Below are positions 8,267 through 43,668 of a stretch of DNA of 64,000 bases, in pieces. This DNA comes from Streptomyces sp. PH10-H1 (GTDB lineage: Bacteria > Actinomycetota > Actinomycetes > Streptomycetales > Streptomycetaceae). How positions within the stretch are numbered: position 1 is the stretch's first letter; each line of letters begins with the position of its first letter. A program made the position numbers and the translations under genes. The stretch lies in contig NZ_JASISZ010000009.1 of the NCBI RefSeq assembly GCF_030063355.1, positions 1 through 64,000 of the forward strand, written 5' to 3'. Below the pieces are notes generated by a model. The model made no database searches and was not told the origin of the DNA. It saw nothing but the letters and a program-made list of their open reading frames with translations.

Positions 8267-8395
8267 GGAGTTCCTCTTCTCGGTCACGTCGGTCACGGTC
8301 ACGGTCGCGGCCCCGTTGTGGTTCACGCTGTTCACGCGCGGATTCGCGCTCGGATCGGCGCTCACATCCGCGCTCGGATTCACGTTCGCCCTCAC
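8267..8395 (-). repeat. Low-complexity repeat region between kdpD and kdpE
   Basis: The 129 bases between the kdpD stop and the kdpE start are made of imperfect short repeats: GGTCAC units around 8281-8312 and two copies of CGCGCTCGGAT 24 bp apart (8345 and 8369). The stretch stays open in the kdpE frame and would encode a Val/Asn/Ser/Asp-rich leader (VNPSADVSADPSANPRVNS). It looks like repeat expansion in an intercistronic spacer. Confidence 0.6.
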
Positions 8396-10932
8396 GACGT
8401 GGCCTCGGCCGGCAGGTCCGGCCGGGCAGGCCGGCCGCCATGGACGGCCTGGAGGGTGAGGACCATGGTCAGGCCGCCGCCGGGGGTGTCCTCGGCGACC
8501 AGCGTGCCGCCCATGGACTCGGCGAAGCCGCGGGCGACGGCCAGCCCGAGGCCCACGCCGTTGCCGCGCGGGGCGTCGCCGTAGCGCTGGAAGGGCTCGA
8601 ATATCCGGTCCCTTGCGGTTTCCGGCACCCCGGGGCCGCGGTCGACGACCCGCAGTTCCACGCGGTCGCCGAGCGCGCTGGCGGCCACGACCACCTTGGA
8701 ACCCGCGGCGCTGTACTTCACGGCGTTCTCGACGACGTTGGCGACGGCGCGCTCCAGCAGTCCCGGGTCGACGGCGACCATCGGCAGGCTCTCCGGGATG
8801 TCGAGGACGACGCTGTCCTCGGGGACGCCGCCGAGGGCCATCGGCACCACCTCGTCGAGGTCGATCTCCCGGATCAGCGGGGTGACGGTGCCGGTCTGCA
8901 GGCGGGACATGTCGAGGAGATTGCCCACCAGGTGGTCGAGCCGGTCGGCGCCGTCCTCGATGCCGGCCAGCAGCTCGGCCTCGTCCTCGTCGGACCAGGC
9001 GACGTCGTCGGCGCGCAGCGAGCTCACCGACGCCTTGATGGCGGCCAGCGGGGTGCGCAGGTCGTGGGAGACGGCGGCGAGCAGCGCGGTGCGGATGCGG
9101 TTGCCCTCAGCCAGCTCCCGAGCCTGCTCGGCCTCGCCCTCGAGCCGCTGCCGGTCGATCACGACGGCGGCCTGCGCGGCGAACGCGGACAGCACCCGGC
9201 GGTCGGAGGCGGGCAGTACCCGCCCGGTGAGCGCCAGCGAGAGCCGGTCGCTGACCGGCACCTCGACGTCGGCGTCCTCAGGACGCAGGCACGGGCGCTC
9301 GCCGACGCTGGCCGCACGGGTCCACGCGCCGTGTTCGCTGTCGCGTTCCAGCAGCACCACCGAGTCCATGCCGAACGTCTCCCGGACCCGCTCCAGCAGC
9401 GCGTCGAGGGAGCTCTCGCCGCGCAGCACGCTGCCTGCCAGGTAGGACAGGATCTCGGCCTCCGAGCGCAGCCGGGCGGCCTGCTGGGTGCGGCGGGCGG
9501 CGAGGTCCACCACGGAGGCCACCGCGACCCCCACCACGATGAAGATCACGATCGCGATGATGTTCTCGGGCTCGGCGATGGTGAAGGAGTGGGTGGGCGG
9601 TGTGAAGTAGTAGTTGAGCAACAGCGAGCCGGCCAACGCCGAGGCCAGCGCGGGAAGCAGTCCGCCGACCAGAGCCGCCGCGACGGTGAGGGTCAGGAAG
9701 AGCAGCATCTCCGTGGCCTGGCTCATGCCCGGGTGCCAGTTGGTCAGCAGCAGGCATATCAGGACCGGGCCCGCGAGTCCGGTGAACCAGCCGGCCACGA
9801 CCCGGGAGCGGCCGAGGCTGGCGCCGCGGGCGGAGGGCAGGCCGCGGCCCTTGGCGGCGTGTTCATGGGTGACGATGTGGACGTCGATGTCGCCGGATTC
9901 GCGGGCGACGGTGGAACCGACGCCGGGGCCCAGCACGTACTGCCAGGCCTTGCGGCGGCTGGTGCCGAGCACGATCTGGGTGGCGTTGACCCCGCGGGCG
10001 AAGTCCAGCATGGCATCGGGGATGTCGTCCCCGACGACGTGGTGGAACGATCCGCCGAGATCCTCCACGAGGGTCCGCTGGGCGGCCAGCTCCTCGGTGG
10101 AGCCGGAGGCGAGCCCGTCGCTGCGGACGATGTGGACGGCGAGGATCTCGCTGCCCGAGCCCTTGGCGGCCATCCGGGCGGCCCGGCGGATCAGGGTGCG
10201 GCCCTCGGGACCGCCGGTGAGGCCGACGACGATGCGCTCGCGGGCCTGCCAGGCGGCGGAGATCCGGTGGTCGGCGCGGTACTCCTGAAGGTATTCGTCG
10301 ACCCGGTCGGCGACCCAGAGCAGGGCCAGCTCGCGCAGCGCGGTGAGGTTGCCGGGCCGGAAGTAGTTGGACAGCGCCGCGTCGACCTTGTCCGGGGCGT
10401 AGATGTTGCCGTGCGCCATCCGGCGCCGCAGCGCCTGTGGCGACATGTCGACCAGCTCTATCTGGTCGGCGCGGCGCACCACTTCGTCGGGCACGGTCTC
10501 GCGCTGCCGGACGCCGGTGATGGACTCGACCACGTCCCCCAGCGACTCCAGGTGCTGGATGTTGACCGTCGAGACGACGTTTATGCCGGCCTGGAGCAGC
10601 TCATCGACGTCCTGCCAGCGCTTGGCGTTGCGGGAGCCGGGCACATTGGTGTGGGCGAGTTCGTCCACGAGCGCGACCGCCGGGTGCCGCGCGAGGACCG
10701 CGTCCACGTCCATCTCGGTGAACGTGGCGTCGCGGTACTCCAGCTCCCGGCGCGGGATCTGCTCCAGGCCGTGCAGCATCACCTCGGTGCGCGGGCGCCT
10801 GTGGTGCTCGACGAAGGCCACGACGATGTCGGTGCCCCGCTCGGTGCGCCGGTGCGCTTCGGAGAGCATGGCGTAGGTCTTGCCCACGCCCGGGGCCGCC
10901 CCGAGGTAGATGCGCAGTTTGCCGCGTGCCAT
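8392..10932 (-). CDS. kdpD: KdpD sensor histidine kinase
   Basis: 846 aa. N-terminal KdpD domain (1-210) with Walker-like YLGAAPGVGKTYAML and FVEHHRRP, then a UspA-like domain (about 225-350), four membrane segments around 385-480, a GAF-like region, HisKA with the H-box AVSHDLRTPLAAIKAS near 620, and HATPase with VVENAVKYS and GVGLGLAVARGF. It senses K+ limitation or turgor and phosphorylates KdpE. It starts at ATG 10932. Unlike classical kdpFABCDE operons, it is separated from kdpFABC by about 3.7 kb of unrelated and decayed genes, so it needs its own promoter upstream. Confidence 0.93.
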   Translation of the reverse strand: MARGKLRIYLGAAPGVGKTYAMLSEAHRRTERGTDIVVAFVEHHRRPRTEVMLHGLEQIPRRELEYRDATFTEMDVDAVLARHPAVALVDELAHTNVPGSRNAKRWQDVDELLQAGINVVSTVNIQHLESLGDVVESITGVRQRETVPDEVVRRADQIELVDMSPQALRRRMAHGNIYAPDKVDAALSNYFRPGNLTALRELALLWVADRVDEYLQEYRADHRISAAWQARERIVVGLTGGPEGRTLIRRAARMAAKGSGSEILAVHIVRSDGLASGSTEELAAQRTLVEDLGGSFHHVVGDDIPDAMLDFARGVNATQIVLGTSRRKAWQYVLGPGVGSTVARESGDIDVHIVTHEHAAKGRGLPSARGASLGRSRVVAGWFTGLAGPVLICLLLTNWHPGMSQATEMLLFLTLTVAAALVGGLLPALASALAGSLLLNYYFTPPTHSFTIAEPENIIAIVIFIVVGVAVASVVDLAARRTQQAARLRSEAEILSYLAGSVLRGESSLDALLERVRETFGMDSVVLLERDSEHGAWTRAASVGERPCLRPEDADVEVPVSDRLSLALTGRVLPASDRRVLSAFAAQAAVVIDRQRLEGEAEQARELAEGNRIRTALLAAVSHDLRTPLAAIKASVSSLRADDVAWSDEDEAELLAGIEDGADRLDHLVGNLLDMSRLQTGTVTPLIREIDLDEVVPMALGGVPEDSVVLDIPESLPMVAVDPGLLERAVANVVENAVKYSAAGSKVVVAASALGDRVELRVVDRGPGVPETARDRIFEPFQRYGDAPRGNGVGLGLAVARGFAESMGGTLVAEDTPGGGLTMVLTLQAVHGGRPARPDLPAEATS

Positions 10933-12273: not shown

Positions 12274-13194
12274 TCAACGCCTTCCGCGCCCACCATTTCG
12301 CCGGTCTCGGCTGTCGCCCCACTGGCCCCACCGGCGCCGCCGGTCGCGCCGGCTTCGCCGGGGGATCACGGATGCCCCGGGCCAGTCGCCGCTCTTCCCC
12401 TGCTCGACGGCGGCGATGTGCTGCTGGCGCAGTTTCGGTCCGATGGTCGCGGCAAAGGCCCGGTTCACGCCGAGTCCGATGTGGTTCGCGGTCTGGGTGC
12501 CCCGGTTGAGGGGGGTGGACAGCCCCTCGGCTGCATGGTCGCCTTGAGCCGCTGGTAGAGGTCGTCGATGGTGAGGAGTTCGGGCCCGCCGACGACGCCT
12601 TCGGCCAGCAGCCGCATCAGCCGCCCGGAGAACGCCGTTTGGTCCTCGCCCGGCAGGGAGAGGGCGACCTGGTCCCGTTGTGCCGAGGTGAGGACATAGG
12701 TGCCCGCCACTTCGGATCTGGCCGAGCTCCGCGGCTTCCCCGCCGGCCATGGTGTCGGTGACGACACGACCGGAGCAGTCCAGGATGACGACCTTGGTGG
12801 CGGCGGGGCTGTCGAGCACCGCACTGCGCAGCTTCTCGTACTCCAGGGAGTTGAACTCCGGGTCGCCCCAGTCGCTGTCCGGCAGCGCGAGATACAGCTC
12901 ATGCCGCCGGCCGCTGACGAGTCCGTGTCCCGCGTAGTACACCAGCAGCAGATCATCGGCCTCGCGGATCGTCGCGCGCAGCCGCTGGCCTATGGTGCGG
13001 AGGTCTCCTTCGTCGAGCAGGACCGTGCAGTGCTCTTCCGGCACGACGCCGTAGTGCTGGTCGGTGAAGAGCGCGGCCAGGTCCTGGATGGTGCGGTGCA
13101 CGGACGGCAGGTCGGGAAGTTCCGGGGCCGTGTACGTACTTGCGCCGATCAGCACGATCCGGGAGCGGCGCGGATCCGGCAGGCGGACGGCCAC
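12274..13194 (-). pseudogene. EACC1-associated caspase-like peptidase, frameshifted
   Basis: Caspase/metacaspase-fold (peptidase C14) gene starting at GTG 13194, overlapping the EACC1 stop by one base. The N-terminal strand RIVLIGASTYTAPELPDL and the His motif LLLVYYAGHG (H90) are intact. The Cys motif reads VVILDCSGRV (C140), two residues shorter than the usual 'DxCxSG'. A one-base G insertion near 12719-12722 moves the reading to another frame (EVAGTYVLTSAQRDQVALSL, LLTIDDLYQRLKATMQ), and a one-base loss near 12538-12545 restores the first (AEGLSTPLNRGTQTANH). No clear C-terminal effector follows. In intact relatives such caspases act as regulated proteases in conflict or cell-suicide systems. 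Confidence 0.75.
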
Positions 13195-14647: not shown

Positions 14648-15301
14648 TCAGCCGGCCAGCTTGTGCAGGGCGATGTTGAGCTCCAGGACGTTGACCTTGG
14701 CCTCCCCCAGGATGCCGAGCGGCCGCCCGTCGGTGTGGTTCTTGACGAGCGCCAGCACCTGGCCGTCGGTCAGGTGGTTGGCCCTGGCGACCCGGGCGAT
14801 CTGGATCCTGGCGTAGTCCGGGGAGATGTCCGGGTCGAGGCCCGAGGCGGACGCGGTGACCGCGTCCGCCGGGACCTGCCCGGTGGTGACCCCGTTGAAC
14901 GCCGCGACGTCCTTCTTGCGCTGCCGCACCAGATCGGTGAGCGCCTTGCCGGTGACCGCGAGGTTGGACGCACCGCTGTACGTCGGGTCGTAGGCCCCCG
15001 CGCCGGCGCCCGCGTCGGCCGCCGAGGGGCGGGGCTGGAACCACTTGGGGTCGGGAGCCACCGACTCGGCCGCGTCGGCCGGATTCTTCTTCGGCAGGTC
15101 GAAGGTCTGGCCGAGGACCGTGGAGCCGACGACCCTGCCGTCGGCCTTCACCTGCGAGCCGTTGGCCTGGTTGTTGAAGGCCGCCTGCGCGATACCGGTG
15201 ACGGCGAGCGGGTAGAGCACGCCGCAGATGACGCTGAGGACCAGCAGGGCGCGGAAGGCGCCCCACATCAGCCGGGCGGTGCTGCGTACGGAAGTGTTCA
15301 T
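14648..15301 (-). CDS. kdpC: KdpC subunit of K+-transporting ATPase
   Basis: 217 aa inner-membrane accessory subunit of the KdpFABC pump. One N-terminal membrane segment (ALLVLSVICGVLYPLAVTGI) is followed by an extracytoplasmic domain with the family motifs GSTVLGQTFDLP, ASGLDPDISPDYARIQIARV and LGEAKVNVLELNIAL. It starts 20 nt after the kdpB stop and is the last gene of the operon. Length is normal for high-GC Gram positives. The missing start of strand homology is not an issue: the gene looks intact. Confidence 0.95.
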   Translation of the reverse strand: MNTSVRSTARLMWGAFRALLVLSVICGVLYPLAVTGIAQAAFNNQANGSQVKADGRVVGSTVLGQTFDLPKKNPADAAESVAPDPKWFQPRPSAADAGAGAGAYDPTYSGASNLAVTGKALTDLVRQRKKDVAAFNGVTTGQVPADAVTASASGLDPDISPDYARIQIARVARANHLTDGQVLALVKNHTDGRPLGILGEAKVNVLELNIALHKLAG

Positions 15302-15321: not shown

Positions 15322-17421
15322 TCAGCTCAGGCCGGGGATCTGGGAGATGAGCAGGTCAATGATCTTGATGCCGATGAACGGGGCGATGAGGCCGCCCAGT
15401 CCGTAGACGCCCAGGTTGCGGCGGAGCATCCGGTCGGCGCCCATCGGCCGGTACCGCACGCCCTTGAGGGCCAGCGGCACCAGCGCGATGATGATCAGCG
15501 CGTTGAAGATGACGGCGGACAGGATCGCGGACTCGGGCGTGGCCAGGTGCATGATGTTGAGCTTGTCCAGGCCCGGGTAGGCCACCGCGAACATGGCCGG
15601 GATGATCGCGAAGTACTTCGCGACGTCGTTGGCGATGGAGAACGTCGTCAGCGCGCCACGGGTGATCAGCAGTTGCTTGCCGATCTCCACGATCTCGATC
15701 AGCTTGGTCGGGTTGGAGTCCAGGTCCACCATGTTCCCGGCCTCCTTGGCGGCCGAGGTGCCGGTGTTCATGGCGACACCGACGTCCGCCTGGGCCAGCG
15801 CGGGAGCGTCGTTGGTGCCGTCGCCGGTCATCGCGACGAGCTTGCCGCCCGCCTGCTCCCGCTTGATCAGCGCCATCTTGTCCTCGGGCGTGGCCTCGGC
15901 GAGGAAGTCGTCGACGCCCGCCTCCTCGGCGATCGCCTTCGCCGTCAGCGGGTTGTCACCCGTGATCATGATGGTCTTGATGCCCATCCGGCGCAGCTCG
16001 TCGAACCGCTCCCGCATGCCCTCCTTGACCACGTCCTTGAGGTGGATGACGCCCAGGACCCGCGCGCCCTCGGTGTCCTCGACGGCGACGAGCAGCGGCG
16101 TACCGCCGGCCGACGAGATGCCGTCGACGGCCCGCTGCGCGTCCCCGTCCACCCGGCCGCCGCGCTCGGTGACCCAGGCGGTGACCGCTGAGGCCGCGCC
16201 CTTGCGGACCTTGCGGCCGTCCACGTCCACACCCGACATACGGGTCTGGGCGGTGAAGGGCACGAACTCGGCATGGCTCAGTTCGCCTTCGTGGCGGGCC
16301 CGCAGTCCGTACCGCTCCTTCGCCAGCACGACGATGGAGCGGCCCTCGGGTGTCTCGTCGGCCAGCGACGACAGTTGCGCGGCGTCCGCCAGTTCTGCCT
16401 CGGACGCTCCGGCGACGGCCACGAACTCGGACGCCTGGCGGTTGCCGAGCGTGATGGTGCCGGTCTTGTCCAGCAGCAGCGTGGAGACGTCTCCGGCGGC
16501 CTCGACGGCACGCCCTGACATCGCCAGCACATTGCGCTGCACCAGCCGATCCATCCCCGCGATGCCGATCGCCGACAGCAGCGCCCCGATGGTGGTCGGG
16601 ATGAGGCAGACCAGCAGCGCGACCAGCACGATCATCGACTGCTCGGCGCCCGCGTAGACCGCGAACGGCTGCAGGGTGACGACCGCGAGCAGGAAGACGA
16701 CGGTGAGCGAGGCAAGCAGGATGTTCAGCGCGATCTCGTTCGGCGTCTTCTGCCGTGAGGCGCCCTCGACGAGGGCGATCATCCGGTCGATGAACGTCTC
16801 GCCCGGCTTTGTCGTGATCTTGATGACGATGCGGTCGGAGAGCACCTTGGTGCCACCGGTGACCGCACAGCGATCGCCGCCGGACTCCCGGATGACCGGG
16901 GCCGATTCGCCGGTGATGGCCGACTCGTCGACGCTCGCGACGCCCTCTACGACGTCACCGTCACCGGGGATGATGTCGCCGGCCTCGCAGACCACCAGAT
17001 CGCCCACGCGCAGTTCGGCGCCCGGGACGCTCTCCTCTGCGCGGCCGTTCAGCCGGCGCGCGACGGTGTCGGTCTTGGCCTTGCGCAGCGTATCGGCCTG
17101 CGCCTTGCCGCGGCCCTCGGCGACGGCCTCCGCGAGGTTCGCGAAGACGACCGTCAGCCACAGCCAGCCGGTGATCGCCCAGCCGAAGCCCGAGCCGGGG
17201 TTGGTGGCCGCGAGCACGGTGGTGAGCACCGAGCCGATCAGAACCACGAACATGACGGGCGACTTGACCATCACGCGCGGGTCTAGCTTGCGCAGCGCGT
17301 CGGGCAGCGACCGCAGCAGCTGGGCCGGGTCGAACAGGCCGCCCGACACCCGGCCTTGGTGGTCCTGCGCCGCGGGACGTTCGTCCTCGGACGCGGGTCG
17401 TACAGGAGTAACGGTGCTCAT
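15322..17421 (-). CDS. kdpB: KdpB, K+-transporting P-type ATPase catalytic subunit
   Basis: 699 aa P-type ATPase that hydrolyses ATP to drive K+ uptake through KdpA. The phosphorylation site is [13 protein letters not shown] near residue 318, the actuator motif is [13 protein letters not shown], and the hinge is [22 protein letters not shown]. Membrane pairs flank these domains. Its ATG overlaps the kdpA stop by four bases (ATGA at 17418-17421), so translation is coupled. Confidence 0.96.
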
Positions 17422-19079
17422 GACAGCCCCTCAGCGAGCGGGCCGAGGGCCAGCGCCGGGAAGTAGGTAAGGCCGGTGATGATCAGGATGGCGCCGACGA
17501 GCAGGCCCGTGAACAGCGGCTTCTCGGTGCGCAGGGTGCCCGCGGTGGCCGGGACCGGCTTCTGCTCGCCGAGCGAGCCGGCCAGCGCCAGCACGAACAC
17601 CATCGGCAGGAAGCGGCCGAGGAGCATGGCCAGTCCGATCGTGGTGTTGTACCACTGCGTGTTGGCGTTCAGGCCGGCGAAGGCGGAGCCGTTGTTGTTG
17701 GCACCCGAGGTGTACGCGTACAGCACCTCGGAGAAACCGTGCGGCCCGCTGTTCAGCATCGACGTCGGCGGGGCGGGCAGCGCCATGGCCGCCGCCGTGA
17801 AGCAGAGCGCCAGCGCCGGGGTGATGAGGATGTAGCACGCGGCGAACTTGATCTCGCGGGTGCCGATCTTCTTGCCCAGGTACTCGGGGGTGCGTCCCAC
17901 CATCAGCCCGGCGATGAACACCGCGATGATCGCCATGATCAGCATGCCGTACAGGCCGGAACCCGTACCGCCGGGCGCGATCTCGCCGAGCATCATGCCC
18001 AGCAGCGCGATGCCGCCGCCCAGCCCGCTGTACGAGGAGTGGAACGAATTGACCGCGCCGGTCGACGTCAGGGTCGTACTGGTCGCGAAGAGCGCGGAGC
18101 CCCCCACTCCGAAGCGCTGCTCCTTGCCCTCCATCGCGCCGCCCGCGAGCTGCGACGCGGAGCCCGGGTGGGCGAACTCGGCCCAGCTCATCAGCACGGT
18201 GAAGCCGAGCCAGATGATGCCCATGGTGGCGAGGATCGCGTAGCCCTGCTTGACGCTGCCGACCATCCGGCCGAAGGTGCGGGTCAGCGAGAACGGGATG
18301 ACGAGGATCAGGAAGATCTCGAAGAGGTTGGTGAAGGCGCCCGGGTTCTCGAACGGGTGGGCCGAGTTGGCGTTGTAGAAGCCGCCGCCGTTCGTGCCCA
18401 GTTCCTTGATCGCCTCCTGCGAGGCGACCGCGCCACCGGTGATCGTCTGGTGGCCGCCCGAGAGCGTGGTCACCTCGTGCCAGCCGGCGAAGTTCTGGAT
18501 CGCGCCGAAGCCGACCAGCACGATCGCCGCGATGAAGGCGATCGGCAGCAGGATCCGTACGGTGCCGCGCACCATGTCGGACCAGAAGTTGCCGAGGTCA
18601 CCGGTCCTGGAGCGGGAGAAGCCGCGCACCAGGGCCACGGCCACGGCCAGGCCGACCGCCGCCGAGACGAAGTTCTGCACGGCGAGGCCGGTCGTCTGGG
18701 AGAGATGACCCATGGTCGTCTCGCCCATGTACGACTGCCAGTTCGTGTTCGACACGAACGAGGCCGCGGTGTTGAAGGCCTGGTCGGGTGCGACCGCCTT
18801 GAAGCCGAGCGACATCGGCAGGTGGTTCTGCATCCGCAGCAGCAGATAGAGGAAGAGCACCCCCACCGCGGAGAAGGCCAGCACCGCCCTCAGATAGGAC
18901 GGCCAGCGCATCTCGGCGTCGGGGTTCGCGCCGAAGCAGCGGTAGATCCACCGCTCCGCGCGCAGGTGCTTCTTGGAGCTGTACACGGCGGCCATGTAGT
19001 CGCCGAGCGGGCGGTACACCAGGGCCAGTGCGGCGACCAGCGCCACGACCTGGAGCAGTTGCGCAAGTATCGGGCTCAT
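17418..19079 (-). CDS. kdpA: KdpA, K+-binding channel-like subunit
   Basis: 553 aa polytopic protein of the superfamily of K+ transporters with four pore-loop repeats. Selectivity-region segments are visible: [46 protein letters not shown] and [14 protein letters not shown]. It starts with ATG 19079, 8 nt after the kdpF stop. It forms the K+ path of KdpFABC in the membrane. Length is typical. Confidence 0.96.
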
Positions 19080-19087
19080 GGACGGTG

Positions 19088-19177
19088 TCAGAACCTCTCG
19101 GGGAACAGGAGGGCGACGACCAGATAACCCAGTAGGGCGACGGCCACCACGAGACCGACGATGTTCTCGGCGCTCAC
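19088..19177 (-). CDS. kdpF: KdpF small membrane subunit
   Basis: 29 aa single-span protein beginning at GTG 19177: [20 protein letters not shown], then VALLFPERF. KdpF stabilises the KdpFABC complex in the membrane. The NIVGL...Y...L..P..F pattern is typical of the family. The GTG overlaps the stop of the upstream microprotein (GTGA, 19174-19177). It is short enough to be missed by automatic callers. Confidence 0.9.
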
Positions 19178-19257
19178 AGCTTTGCCACCCCCTTGGCGAT
19201 GATTGCCACCAGCGCGAAAACCGCGATTGTGGTGACGACGAAGGCCACGTCGGCCAT
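19174..19257 (-). CDS. 27-aa membrane microprotein preceding kdpF
   Basis: ATG 19257 with CTAGGAG about 8 nt upstream opens a 27-codon frame: [20 protein letters not shown], then AKGVAKL. It predicts one membrane helix with a basic C-terminus. Its TGA overlaps the kdpF GTG by four bases, so it is the first gene of the kdp operon and coupled to kdpF. Codon third positions are mostly G/C. I do not know a characterised homologue; a second KdpF-like subunit or a leader controlling kdpF translation are both possible. Confidence 0.7.
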
Positions 19258-19398
19258 CGTGTGCTCCTAGATCAGGATCGGAACTGCGGACTCCCTCAGG
19301 TAACAGCCGATCCGAGCGGCTGAGCGATCCCTTGACAGCTCTCATACGGCTGGCGCCGCCGCATTGACGAGTCCTTGACGTAACCCGCACTGACCTGC

Positions 19399-19440: not shown

Positions 19441-19470
19441 GGGCCGGACCCATGTTCATGGGTCCGGCCC
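19441..19470 (-). terminator. Perfect hairpin after the DUF3710 gene
   Basis: GGGCCGGACCCATG followed by TT and its exact complement (19441-19470). It lies 33 nt beyond the DUF3710 stop and insulates the kdp promoter region from upstream transcription. Confidence 0.85.
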
Positions 19471-19502: not shown

Positions 19503-20288
19503 TCAGTGGATCTGGGTGATCTCCGGCCCGCGGCGCATCGGGTCGAGCCCGTCGCCGAACTTCGGCCCCTCGGACTCTTCCTGCGTGATGCCCTCGGGCA
19601 CCATCTGAGCGTCGTTCGGCAGCTTCAGCACGATCGGGTCGCGCGGCGCCATCGGGGTATCGCCCCGCACGACCACGGTGTCGCGGAAGACCTGCTCCAG
19701 CAGTCCGGCGGCCTGCGGCTGCACCGCGCCCTGGCCGGAGATGACCCCGCGCAGGAACCAGCGCGGACCGTCACAGCCGATGAAGCGGACCAGCTGCACG
19801 CCGTTCGTACCGTCCGGCAGCTGTACGGGCACCTGCGCCCGCAGCTCCCAGCCCAGCGAGCCCTCGATCTCATCAACGATGCCGCCCTGCTTGGTGATGC
19901 CGGACGCGATCTCGTCGCGCACCTCACCCCAGATGCCCTCGGACTTCGGGGCGGCGAACGCCTGGAGCTGGACAGCGCTGTCGTTCAGCACCACGGTCGC
20001 GGCGACGATCGACTCGCCGGCCACCTCCACCCGCAGCTCCATGCCCTCGACACCGGGGACGAACAGTCCGCCGAGGTCGACCCGGCCCTCGCCGGGCTCC
20101 GTGACCTCGCGCAGGTCCCAGGGCCCGTCGGGCCTGGCGGCGGGCGGAAGGTTGTACCGACCCGATGCGCCGGAGTCGTCGGACTCCCCGGCGTCTTCGG
20201 CGTCTTCGGCCAGCTCGTCCGGGCTCGCGCCCTCGAGCTCGTCGAGGGCGTCTTCGCGCTCCTTGCGACGACGACGGAACACGGTCAC
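19503..20288 (-). CDS. DUF3710 protein
   Basis: 261 aa soluble actinobacterial protein of unknown function (DUF3710). A very basic start (MTVFRRRRKERED) and an acidic linker of Glu/Asp/Ser are followed from about residue 50 by the conserved domain: GPWDLREV, VDLGGLFVPG, VQLQAFAAPKSEGIW, DEIEGSLGWELRAQVPV, FIGCDGPRWFLRGVISG. The GTG start overlaps the dut stop (GTGA). It is conserved next to dut in Streptomyces, forming a thioesterase-dut-DUF3710 operon. Confidence 0.85.
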   Translation of the reverse strand: MTVFRRRRKEREDALDELEGASPDELAEDAEDAGESDDSGASGRYNLPPAARPDGPWDLREVTEPGEGRVDLGGLFVPGVEGMELRVEVAGESIVAATVVLNDSAVQLQAFAAPKSEGIWGEVRDEIASGITKQGGIVDEIEGSLGWELRAQVPVQLPDGTNGVQLVRFIGCDGPRWFLRGVISGQGAVQPQAAGLLEQVFRDTVVVRGDTPMAPRDPIVLKLPNDAQMVPEGITQEESEGPKFGDGLDPMRRGPEITQIH

Positions 20289-43355: not shown

Positions 43356-43383
43356 GAGCGCGGCGAGATCCTTTCCTTCCTTC

Positions 43384-43520
43384 TCGCCTACCGGGTTAGC
43401 TGACGGGTTCGGAGCAGGAAGGTCTCCTACGGGCTGCCTCGTGATGAGGACGGCCCGATTCACCCCAGGGACATGGGTCCCCGGCTCCCCAGGCTCGCGC
43501 CGGACGGGGACTCGGCGATC
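43384..43520 (-). ncRNA. c-di-AMP riboswitch (ydaO-yuaA class)
   Basis: Read on the minus strand, the leader of the M23 gene contains the class signatures in order: GCCGAGTCC, GGGTGAATCGGGCC, GGCAGCCCGTAGGAGACC, CTGCTCCGAACCCGTCAGCT, then AACCCGGTAGGCG, followed by GAAGGAAGG near the coding start. The GGGTGAATCG and CCGAACCCGTCAGCTAACC blocks are near-invariant in ydaO riboswitches, which in actinobacteria commonly precede wall hydrolase genes. High c-di-AMP normally turns expression off. Confidence 0.88.
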
Positions 43521-43668
43521 ACTGCCCGGTTGCCGCTGGACGCGGCGGATGGTGACGAGCAGCCGACAGGACGGTAATGGGACCCCGTCGGGATCGGCAA
43601 ACAGAACCGGGCATTTGTTGGGTTCCCCACACAGGGGCGTAGTGGGCGGATAAAGATCCAAAACACCC

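Follow-up and report, generated by a model that had tools for sequence, protein, structure and literature searches.

A widespread single-span membrane microprotein encoded ahead of kdpF as a candidate fifth subunit of the Kdp potassium pump

KdpFABC is the textbook primary K+ pump, and KdpF is its 29-residue subunit. In C. acetobutylicum, small ORFs for hydrophobic peptides, orfZ and orfY, were reportedly described by Treuner-Lange in 1997. The operon of this species has been cited as kdpZYABCXDE, an order that places two genes before kdpA (PMC5401905). Structural knowledge of KdpFABC rests on the E. coli complex (PMC10654040), and a Streptomyces review names only KdpF, KdpA, KdpB and KdpC (PMC10117811). 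The leaders of kdp transcripts have been described in two other bacteria. In M. smegmatis, transcription begins 120 nt upstream of the kdpF GTG, and the authors did not settle what so long a 5' UTR does (PMC5401905); in Caulobacter, kdpF is preceded by roughly 100 nt of 5' UTR, predicted to be structured (PMC8552747).

The kdp locus of Streptomyces sp. PH10-H1

The window, that is, the whole 64,000-nucleotide stretch of DNA analysed from Streptomyces sp. PH10-H1, contains a kdp operon that a preliminary description had proposed to be headed by an overlooked gene for a single-span membrane microprotein. The 27-codon frame, the AGGAG site and the four-base overlap with kdpF on which that proposal was built are all present, on the reverse strand (GTGA at 19177-19174). 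The gene is called Z here, as a working label only and with no claim on any published kdpZ. The features of the locus are the following.

19174 to 19257, reverse strand: Z, microprotein gene of 27 codons plus stop (ATG at 19257-19255, TGA at 19176-19174)
19264 to 19268, reverse strand: AGGAG ribosome-binding site, read from the sequence, 6 bases 5' of the Z ATG
19174 to 19177, reverse strand: GTGA stop/start overlap of Z with kdpF, the same GTGA in 41 of 41 loci
19088 to 19177, reverse strand: kdpF (Pfam PF09604, 41.4 bits with a cut-off of 21.2; TIGR02115, 42.2 bits)
17418 to 19079, reverse strand: kdpA (Pfam PF03814, 772.8 bits)
15322 to 17421, reverse strand: kdpB (TIGR01497, 1062.2 bits)
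14648 to 15301, reverse strand: kdpC (Pfam PF02669, 221.3 bits)
8392 to 10932, reverse strand: kdpD, full-length sensor kinase with membrane and kinase domains (Pfam KdpD, DUF4118, HisKA, HATPase_c)
19441 to 19470, reverse strand: inverted repeat (arms of 14 bases) located between the end of the DUF3710 gene at 19503 and Z, found by direct reading and not listed by a terminator scan

The inverted repeat would be the terminator of the DUF3710 gene, and on this reading the kdp transcript probably has Z as its leading ORF. The KdpA of the window shares 80.9% identity with the nearest plasmid-borne KdpA among the matches listed, that of a Streptomyces. A caspase-like gene (Peptidase_C14, 12274-13194) lies between kdpC and kdpD, and a frame overlapping it matches an EACC1-associated caspase model below that model's cut-off. 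Elsewhere in the window, a ydaO c-di-AMP riboswitch is found at 43371-43527 on the reverse strand (90.4 bits).

The product of Z falls outside the curated families and is mostly unannotated. Neither Pfam nor NCBIfam matches the window's Z at E values up to 10, whereas the neighbouring kdpF is matched; none of ten diverse members of the Z family reaches a Pfam or NCBIfam cut-off, the best being BcsF at 14.7 bits (cut-off 23). No PDB chain was matched at E up to 10 by the window's Z or by a Rhizobium Z, and the window's kdpF matched two KdpF sequences there, of 14 and 11 entries. In a plasmid gene table that is incomplete, Z is annotated in one (Mycetohabitans) of the seven Z-bearing plasmid records with genes annotated at this place and omitted in the other six; two more Z-bearing plasmid records carry no annotation in the Z stretch. 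Among the 60 matches listed of 164 to the Rhizobium peptide, 53 are featureless, five lie in unannotated records and two are named 'hypothetical protein'. The annotated Mycetohabitans (Burkholderiales) protein, WP_212667346.1, is a 34-aa 'potassium ABC transporter ATPase' that directly precedes kdpF and is a member of the Z family at 34.3 bits, itself also a seed; its name, apparently automatic and backed by no family model, is uninformative as to role. A literature search of partial coverage yielded no description of Z apart from the kdpZY cited for C. acetobutylicum. The earlier suggestion that a second tiny subunit would be new for this P-type ATPase thus holds as far as curated families and PDB matches are concerned, but has to be qualified by the cited kdpZYABCXDE (PMC5401905) and by the one Burkholderiales record in which a homologue is annotated.

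Conservation of Z and its linkage to kdp genes

Z is very probably a real gene. Its 27 codons, its ATG and the GTGA overlap are all intact in 41 of 41 family loci (30 of the genus, including the window's own, 10 of the same family and one of a named Streptomyces plasmid), so that the frame and start are kept at the kdp loci of relatives, as the preliminary description had asked of a genuine gene. In 15 further loci of the genus, chosen mostly for a missing Z match or a missing intact kdpA, a Z frame is found in nine (three of them divergent) and a decayed remnant in one, and five lack both Z and kdpF. Over 40 distinct sequences, pN/pS is 0.50 in the Z frame and 0.38 in kdpF, compared with 1.02 and 1.41 in the other sense frames of the Z stretch and 0.70, 0.99 and 2.53 in its antisense frames. 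The moderate value for Z perhaps reflects free exchange of I, V, L and A within the span; among the six nearest loci, it falls to 0.19. Synonymous change among these six (the window with L003-L006 and L008, and thus few sequences) is also lower in Z, at 0.19, than in kdpF, at 0.35, which may point to an overlapping signal. A Shine-Dalgarno-like 4-mer precedes 131 of 154 Z starts, compared with 1011 of 5148 (20%) ATG or GTG codons on the opposite strand, and in relatives the Z start follows an AGGAG or a GGGG-type stretch. Z is presumably translated.

Within the genus, the gene is tied to kdp. With one member as the query, 35 genomes yielded 47 matches at E 0.002 or better and three at E 0.96 or worse, these three located elsewhere than kdp. 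As expected of the gene for an accessory subunit, 46 of the 47 clear matches lie 93-103 bp upstream of a kdpA match, two of them before kdpA fragments (L214, L215), and the 47th (L229, in G014:C194) belongs to a kdp remnant. In this remnant, Z is intact, the kdpF behind it is damaged and has lost the usual C end, and the start of a KdpD-like frame comes directly after, kdpABC being absent. Ten kdpA matches in the 35 genomes came without a Z match; the regions upstream of nine of them hold a divergent Z in three cases (17.5-18.1 bits), a decayed remnant in one and neither Z nor KdpF in five. A decayed Z is seen at L217 (G032:C78), as a short frame without membrane span, with the GTGA at the kdpF start still present, and this is one locus in which KdpF is kept next to a decayed Z. 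A second, divergent type of kdpA, with 49-50% identity to that of the window, also occurs in the genus (L208-L212), and its upstream regions are without Z and without KdpF.

At the protein level, selection acts on a peptide with a single hydrophobic span, another trait expected of an accessory subunit, and its core is kept over 142 distinct sequences. The most constant features are M-x-D (83%), F14 (84%), A15 (73%), K/R22 (62%), C/V24 (79%), D/E25 (78%), R/K26 (83%) and L27 (71%). The C end carries the higher net charge in 135 of 154 members and the lower in two. The positive-inside rule relates charge distribution to membrane topology, and the more positive C end of the predicted peptide therefore suggests an N-out/C-in orientation.

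Z resembles KdpF in its size, its single span, its neighbouring genes, its mostly acidic N end and the acid-base-hydrophobic residues at its C end. Unlike KdpF, which typically shows Y-L-x-x-A-L and P-E-R/K-F, it has D3, F14-A15 and C/V-D/E-R/K-L. The idea that Z might be a paralogue of KdpF, put forward in the preliminary description, found no backing: profile-profile comparison gave an hhalign probability of 0.8% over one aligned column, hence no detectable homology, and the window's Z matches neither PF09604 nor TIGR02115 above the curated cut-off. Cross-scores are likewise low, with at most 9.1 bits for the Z profile on 197 KdpFs and 7.8 bits for the KdpF profile on 154 Z. A very remote shared origin of the two, both being short helices, is conceivable.

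Distribution of Z across bacteria

A family profile was built from 34 members, the window's Z (34.3 bits) itself a seed, and all small ORFs upstream of kdpA were scored against it; 15 bits was the threshold for presence, and lower scores were counted as absence. The best score in a reverse-strand control was 9.0 bits among 1021 ORFs of the first set of regions, and some regions that lack Z score as high as 9.3 bits, whether through chance or because of KdpF-like peptides (L090). Between these values and the threshold, ORFs before kdpF at L039, L137, L170, L171 and L205 scored 9.7-12.0 bits and were counted as absent, and at least these five look like divergent members.

One kdpA scan of genome contigs gave at least 583 relatives, the best 80 of which, none a seed, were taken as named loci with groups assigned from record titles; the counts are not prevalences. 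The Z core scores at least 15 bits in 53 of these 80, across eight phylum-level groups, and the best of 820 reverse-strand ORFs from the same loci reaches 5.5 bits. Within the best 80 of 583, 27 of the 28 alphaproteobacterial loci carry Z, as do 10 of the 11 from Acidobacteriota (the remaining one borderline) and all four from non-enteric Gammaproteobacteria. The figures are three of six in Betaproteobacteria, where two more are borderline, three of four in Chloroflexota and one of two in deltaproteobacteria with Geobacter, and Z is also present in the single locus each of Gemmatimonadota, Binatia, Myxococcota, Melainabacteria and Coriobacteriia. In the same best 80, it was found in none of the six loci of Enterobacterales, the four of Bacteroidota and the two each of Ignavibacteria/Kapabacteria and Bacillota, nor in the single loci of Elusimicrobia, Spartobacteria and Planctomycetes (the last borderline), in one unplaced proteobacterium or in two unplaced bacteria. 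The E. coli kdp locus examined (L119) is without Z, the best score there being 3.5 bits.

Plasmid records carry Z in 9 of 17 kdp loci, the bearers being Streptomyces, Caballeronia, Deinococcus radiodurans, Acetobacter, Rhizobium, Paracoccus, Pseudoroseomonas, Shinella and Mycetohabitans. In a sample of Actinomycetota, kdpA was found in 76 of 396 genomes and Z in 45 of the 69 loci examined, which come from 65 of those genomes; 10 of the 76 (fragments, contig ends or genomes not fetched) and a duplicate, L001, are left out of this count. Profiles were also built with parts of the family withheld, in hold-out tests that omit three divergent genus copies (L206, L207, L213). A profile from actinomycetes only places 61 of 61 named and plasmid members (60 from outside Actinomycetota and one from Coriobacteriia) above both controls (reverse-strand ORFs and KdpFs), these 61 having been selected with the mixed seed profile. 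A model from named and plasmid members only does so for 78 of 90 others, and one from the Streptomycetaceae type only is narrow, with 47 of 104 held-out members beating both controls.

Before kdpA, in 219 loci that include several loci per genome and some at contig edges, Z and KdpF occur together in 150, Z alone in four, KdpF alone in 47 (at the 15-bit threshold) and neither in 18. The 47 loci with KdpF but without Z show that Z is not a general requirement of the pump. Two of the Z-only loci (L213, L214) have partial kdpA matches. The third, L105, comes from a genome in a single contig, and its Z runs straight into kdpA, KdpF being absent between the two; a Pfam search of that genome detected no KdpF, but the same search missed the KdpF of G184, which the profile of this study detects. 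In the fourth, L089, the operon of G143 (also L230) is rearranged, with KdpF before kdpB, followed by Z and another small hydrophobic frame before kdpA. On the plasmid of Deinococcus sp. QL22 (L065), a tandem pair of KdpF-like frames precedes kdpA without a clear Z. No fusion of Z and KdpF into one ORF was seen among the upstream regions examined at the thresholds set, and a suspected KdpA-KdpB fusion in L144 was rejected, as its 1240-aa frame holds ATPase domains and no KdpA match.

Possible roles of Z and comparison with known systems

On balance, Z is probably a single-span membrane microprotein that joins the Kdp pump as a fifth subunit, next to KdpF and without a catalytic role. That it would be part of the pump is reasoned from gene context, and what it would do there is our guess. 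Once translated and inserted N-out/C-in, it would bind the membrane part of KdpA and KdpB near KdpF and might stabilize the complex or tune its activity, by analogy with KdpF and with phospholamban-type peptides for their pumps; the pumps of the Enterobacterales, Bacteroidota and Bacillota examined work without it. A regulator of pump assembly, the other role put forward in the preliminary description, is also conceivable. The pump is favored as partner over the sensor kinase KdpD on two grounds: Z accompanies the pump genes, sharing bases with kdpF (in most actinomycete loci) or with kdpA, and the nearest precedent is a single-span peptide beside KdpF. Modeling with AlphaFold2 of a read-through Z-KdpF-KdpA chain from an Agrobacterium locus gave a mean pLDDT of 79.6 and a pTM of 0.81, with 10-residue means of 52, 65 and 68 for Z and of 65, 62 and 47 for KdpF, the positive control, so that neither peptide is confidently placed and the model does not bear on docking.

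By analogy with the action of MgrB on PhoQ, Z could instead be a membrane regulator of KdpD, which we consider unlikely. KdpF has been reported to interact with KdpD when the M. tuberculosis genes were assayed in a two-hybrid system (PMC3618439), Z and kdpD share the window, and the sensor domain occurs in 42 of 43 Z-bearing Actinomycetota genomes, the remaining one being 64% complete. Open KdpD frames of at least 826 aa are found in 35 of these 43, a short sensor only in seven and none in the incomplete one. In the seven, the sole PF02702 protein has 363-395 aa and no hydrophobic span, but this objection is weakened by a separate DUF4118 protein, above the cut-off in four, below it in two and missing in one (G143); with DUF4118 found apart in most of them, only one to three genomes oppose a role on KdpD. 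In G264, one of the four, KdpD is split, its kinase half with DUF4118 being a separate gene next door. The seven Actinomycetota genomes with the short, sensor-only KdpD are covered by L221-L227 and L232. Many genomes without Z have a full-length KdpD frame, however, which speaks against Z as a partner of the kinase.

Small membrane peptides can have other partners, and KdpF itself binds MmpL proteins in a two-hybrid screen (PMC3618439), so a kdp-linked role outside both the pump and KdpD, such as protease recruitment or service to another transporter, was also considered; given the linkage of Z to kdp genes and its co-occurrence with KdpF, it appears improbable. That Z is a leader ORF, in which translation alone matters and sets or couples that of kdpF, would fit the four-base overlap, which all 41 family loci keep, as do 37 of the 43 loci of the Actinomycetota sample with both genes. 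However, at least one base separates Z from kdpF in 43 of the 53 named two-gene loci (from the best 80 of 583), where the spacing ranges from -8 to 36 with one of 307, and D3, F14, D/E25, R/K26 and the length of the core persist across the 142 distinct sequences, unlike what is expected of a leader peptide, making such a role highly unlikely. Finally, although the kdp leaders of M. smegmatis (PMC5401905) and Caulobacter (PMC8552747) have been read as long, possibly regulatory 5' UTRs and synonymous change in the six nearest loci is lower in Z than in kdpF, a structured 5' UTR with an incidental Z frame has hardly any chance of being the conserved element, as the Z stretch folds no better than its shuffles (z 0.01, the window sequence alone being folded), no Rfam family reaches its gathering score over it, and substitutions track the Z frame.

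With Z regarded as a part of the pump, a wider proposal may be made tentatively, at somewhat less than even chances: in much of the bacterial domain, Kdp would be a P-type ATPase of five subunits, and Z, widespread and probably ancient, would have been lost from Enterobacterales, Bacteroidota and Bacillota or never acquired by them. It would set a property of the pump, for example inhibition at normal K+ or order of assembly, that E. coli manages otherwise, and the long 5' UTRs of the kdp mRNAs of M. smegmatis, and perhaps of Caulobacter, would be largely Z coding sequence. The published 22-base KdpE box of M. smegmatis had no exact match in the genome contigs searched; in 297 sampled genomes of a mycobacterium-like genus, exact matches were likewise 0, and matches with one or two mismatches were found in eight. 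In all eight, the stretch from this box to kdpF contains Z, whose start precedes that of kdpF by 74 or 80 nt. If actinomycete, alphaproteobacterial and acidobacterial pumps do carry Z as a further subunit, models based on E. coli would be incomplete for them, pump preparations from those bacteria may miss a part and two published kdp leaders would need rereading.

Two described systems come close to the arrangement proposed here. The kdpZY genes of C. acetobutylicum, compared by description only, resemble Z in their position before kdpA; unlike that description, both Bacillota among the named loci (best 80 of 583) are without Z. Small subunits of the phospholamban and sarcolipin type are, as predicted for Z, single-span peptides beside a P-type ATPase (PMC10654040), there a eukaryotic one; Z differs in being encoded in the pump operon, and no homology is claimed.
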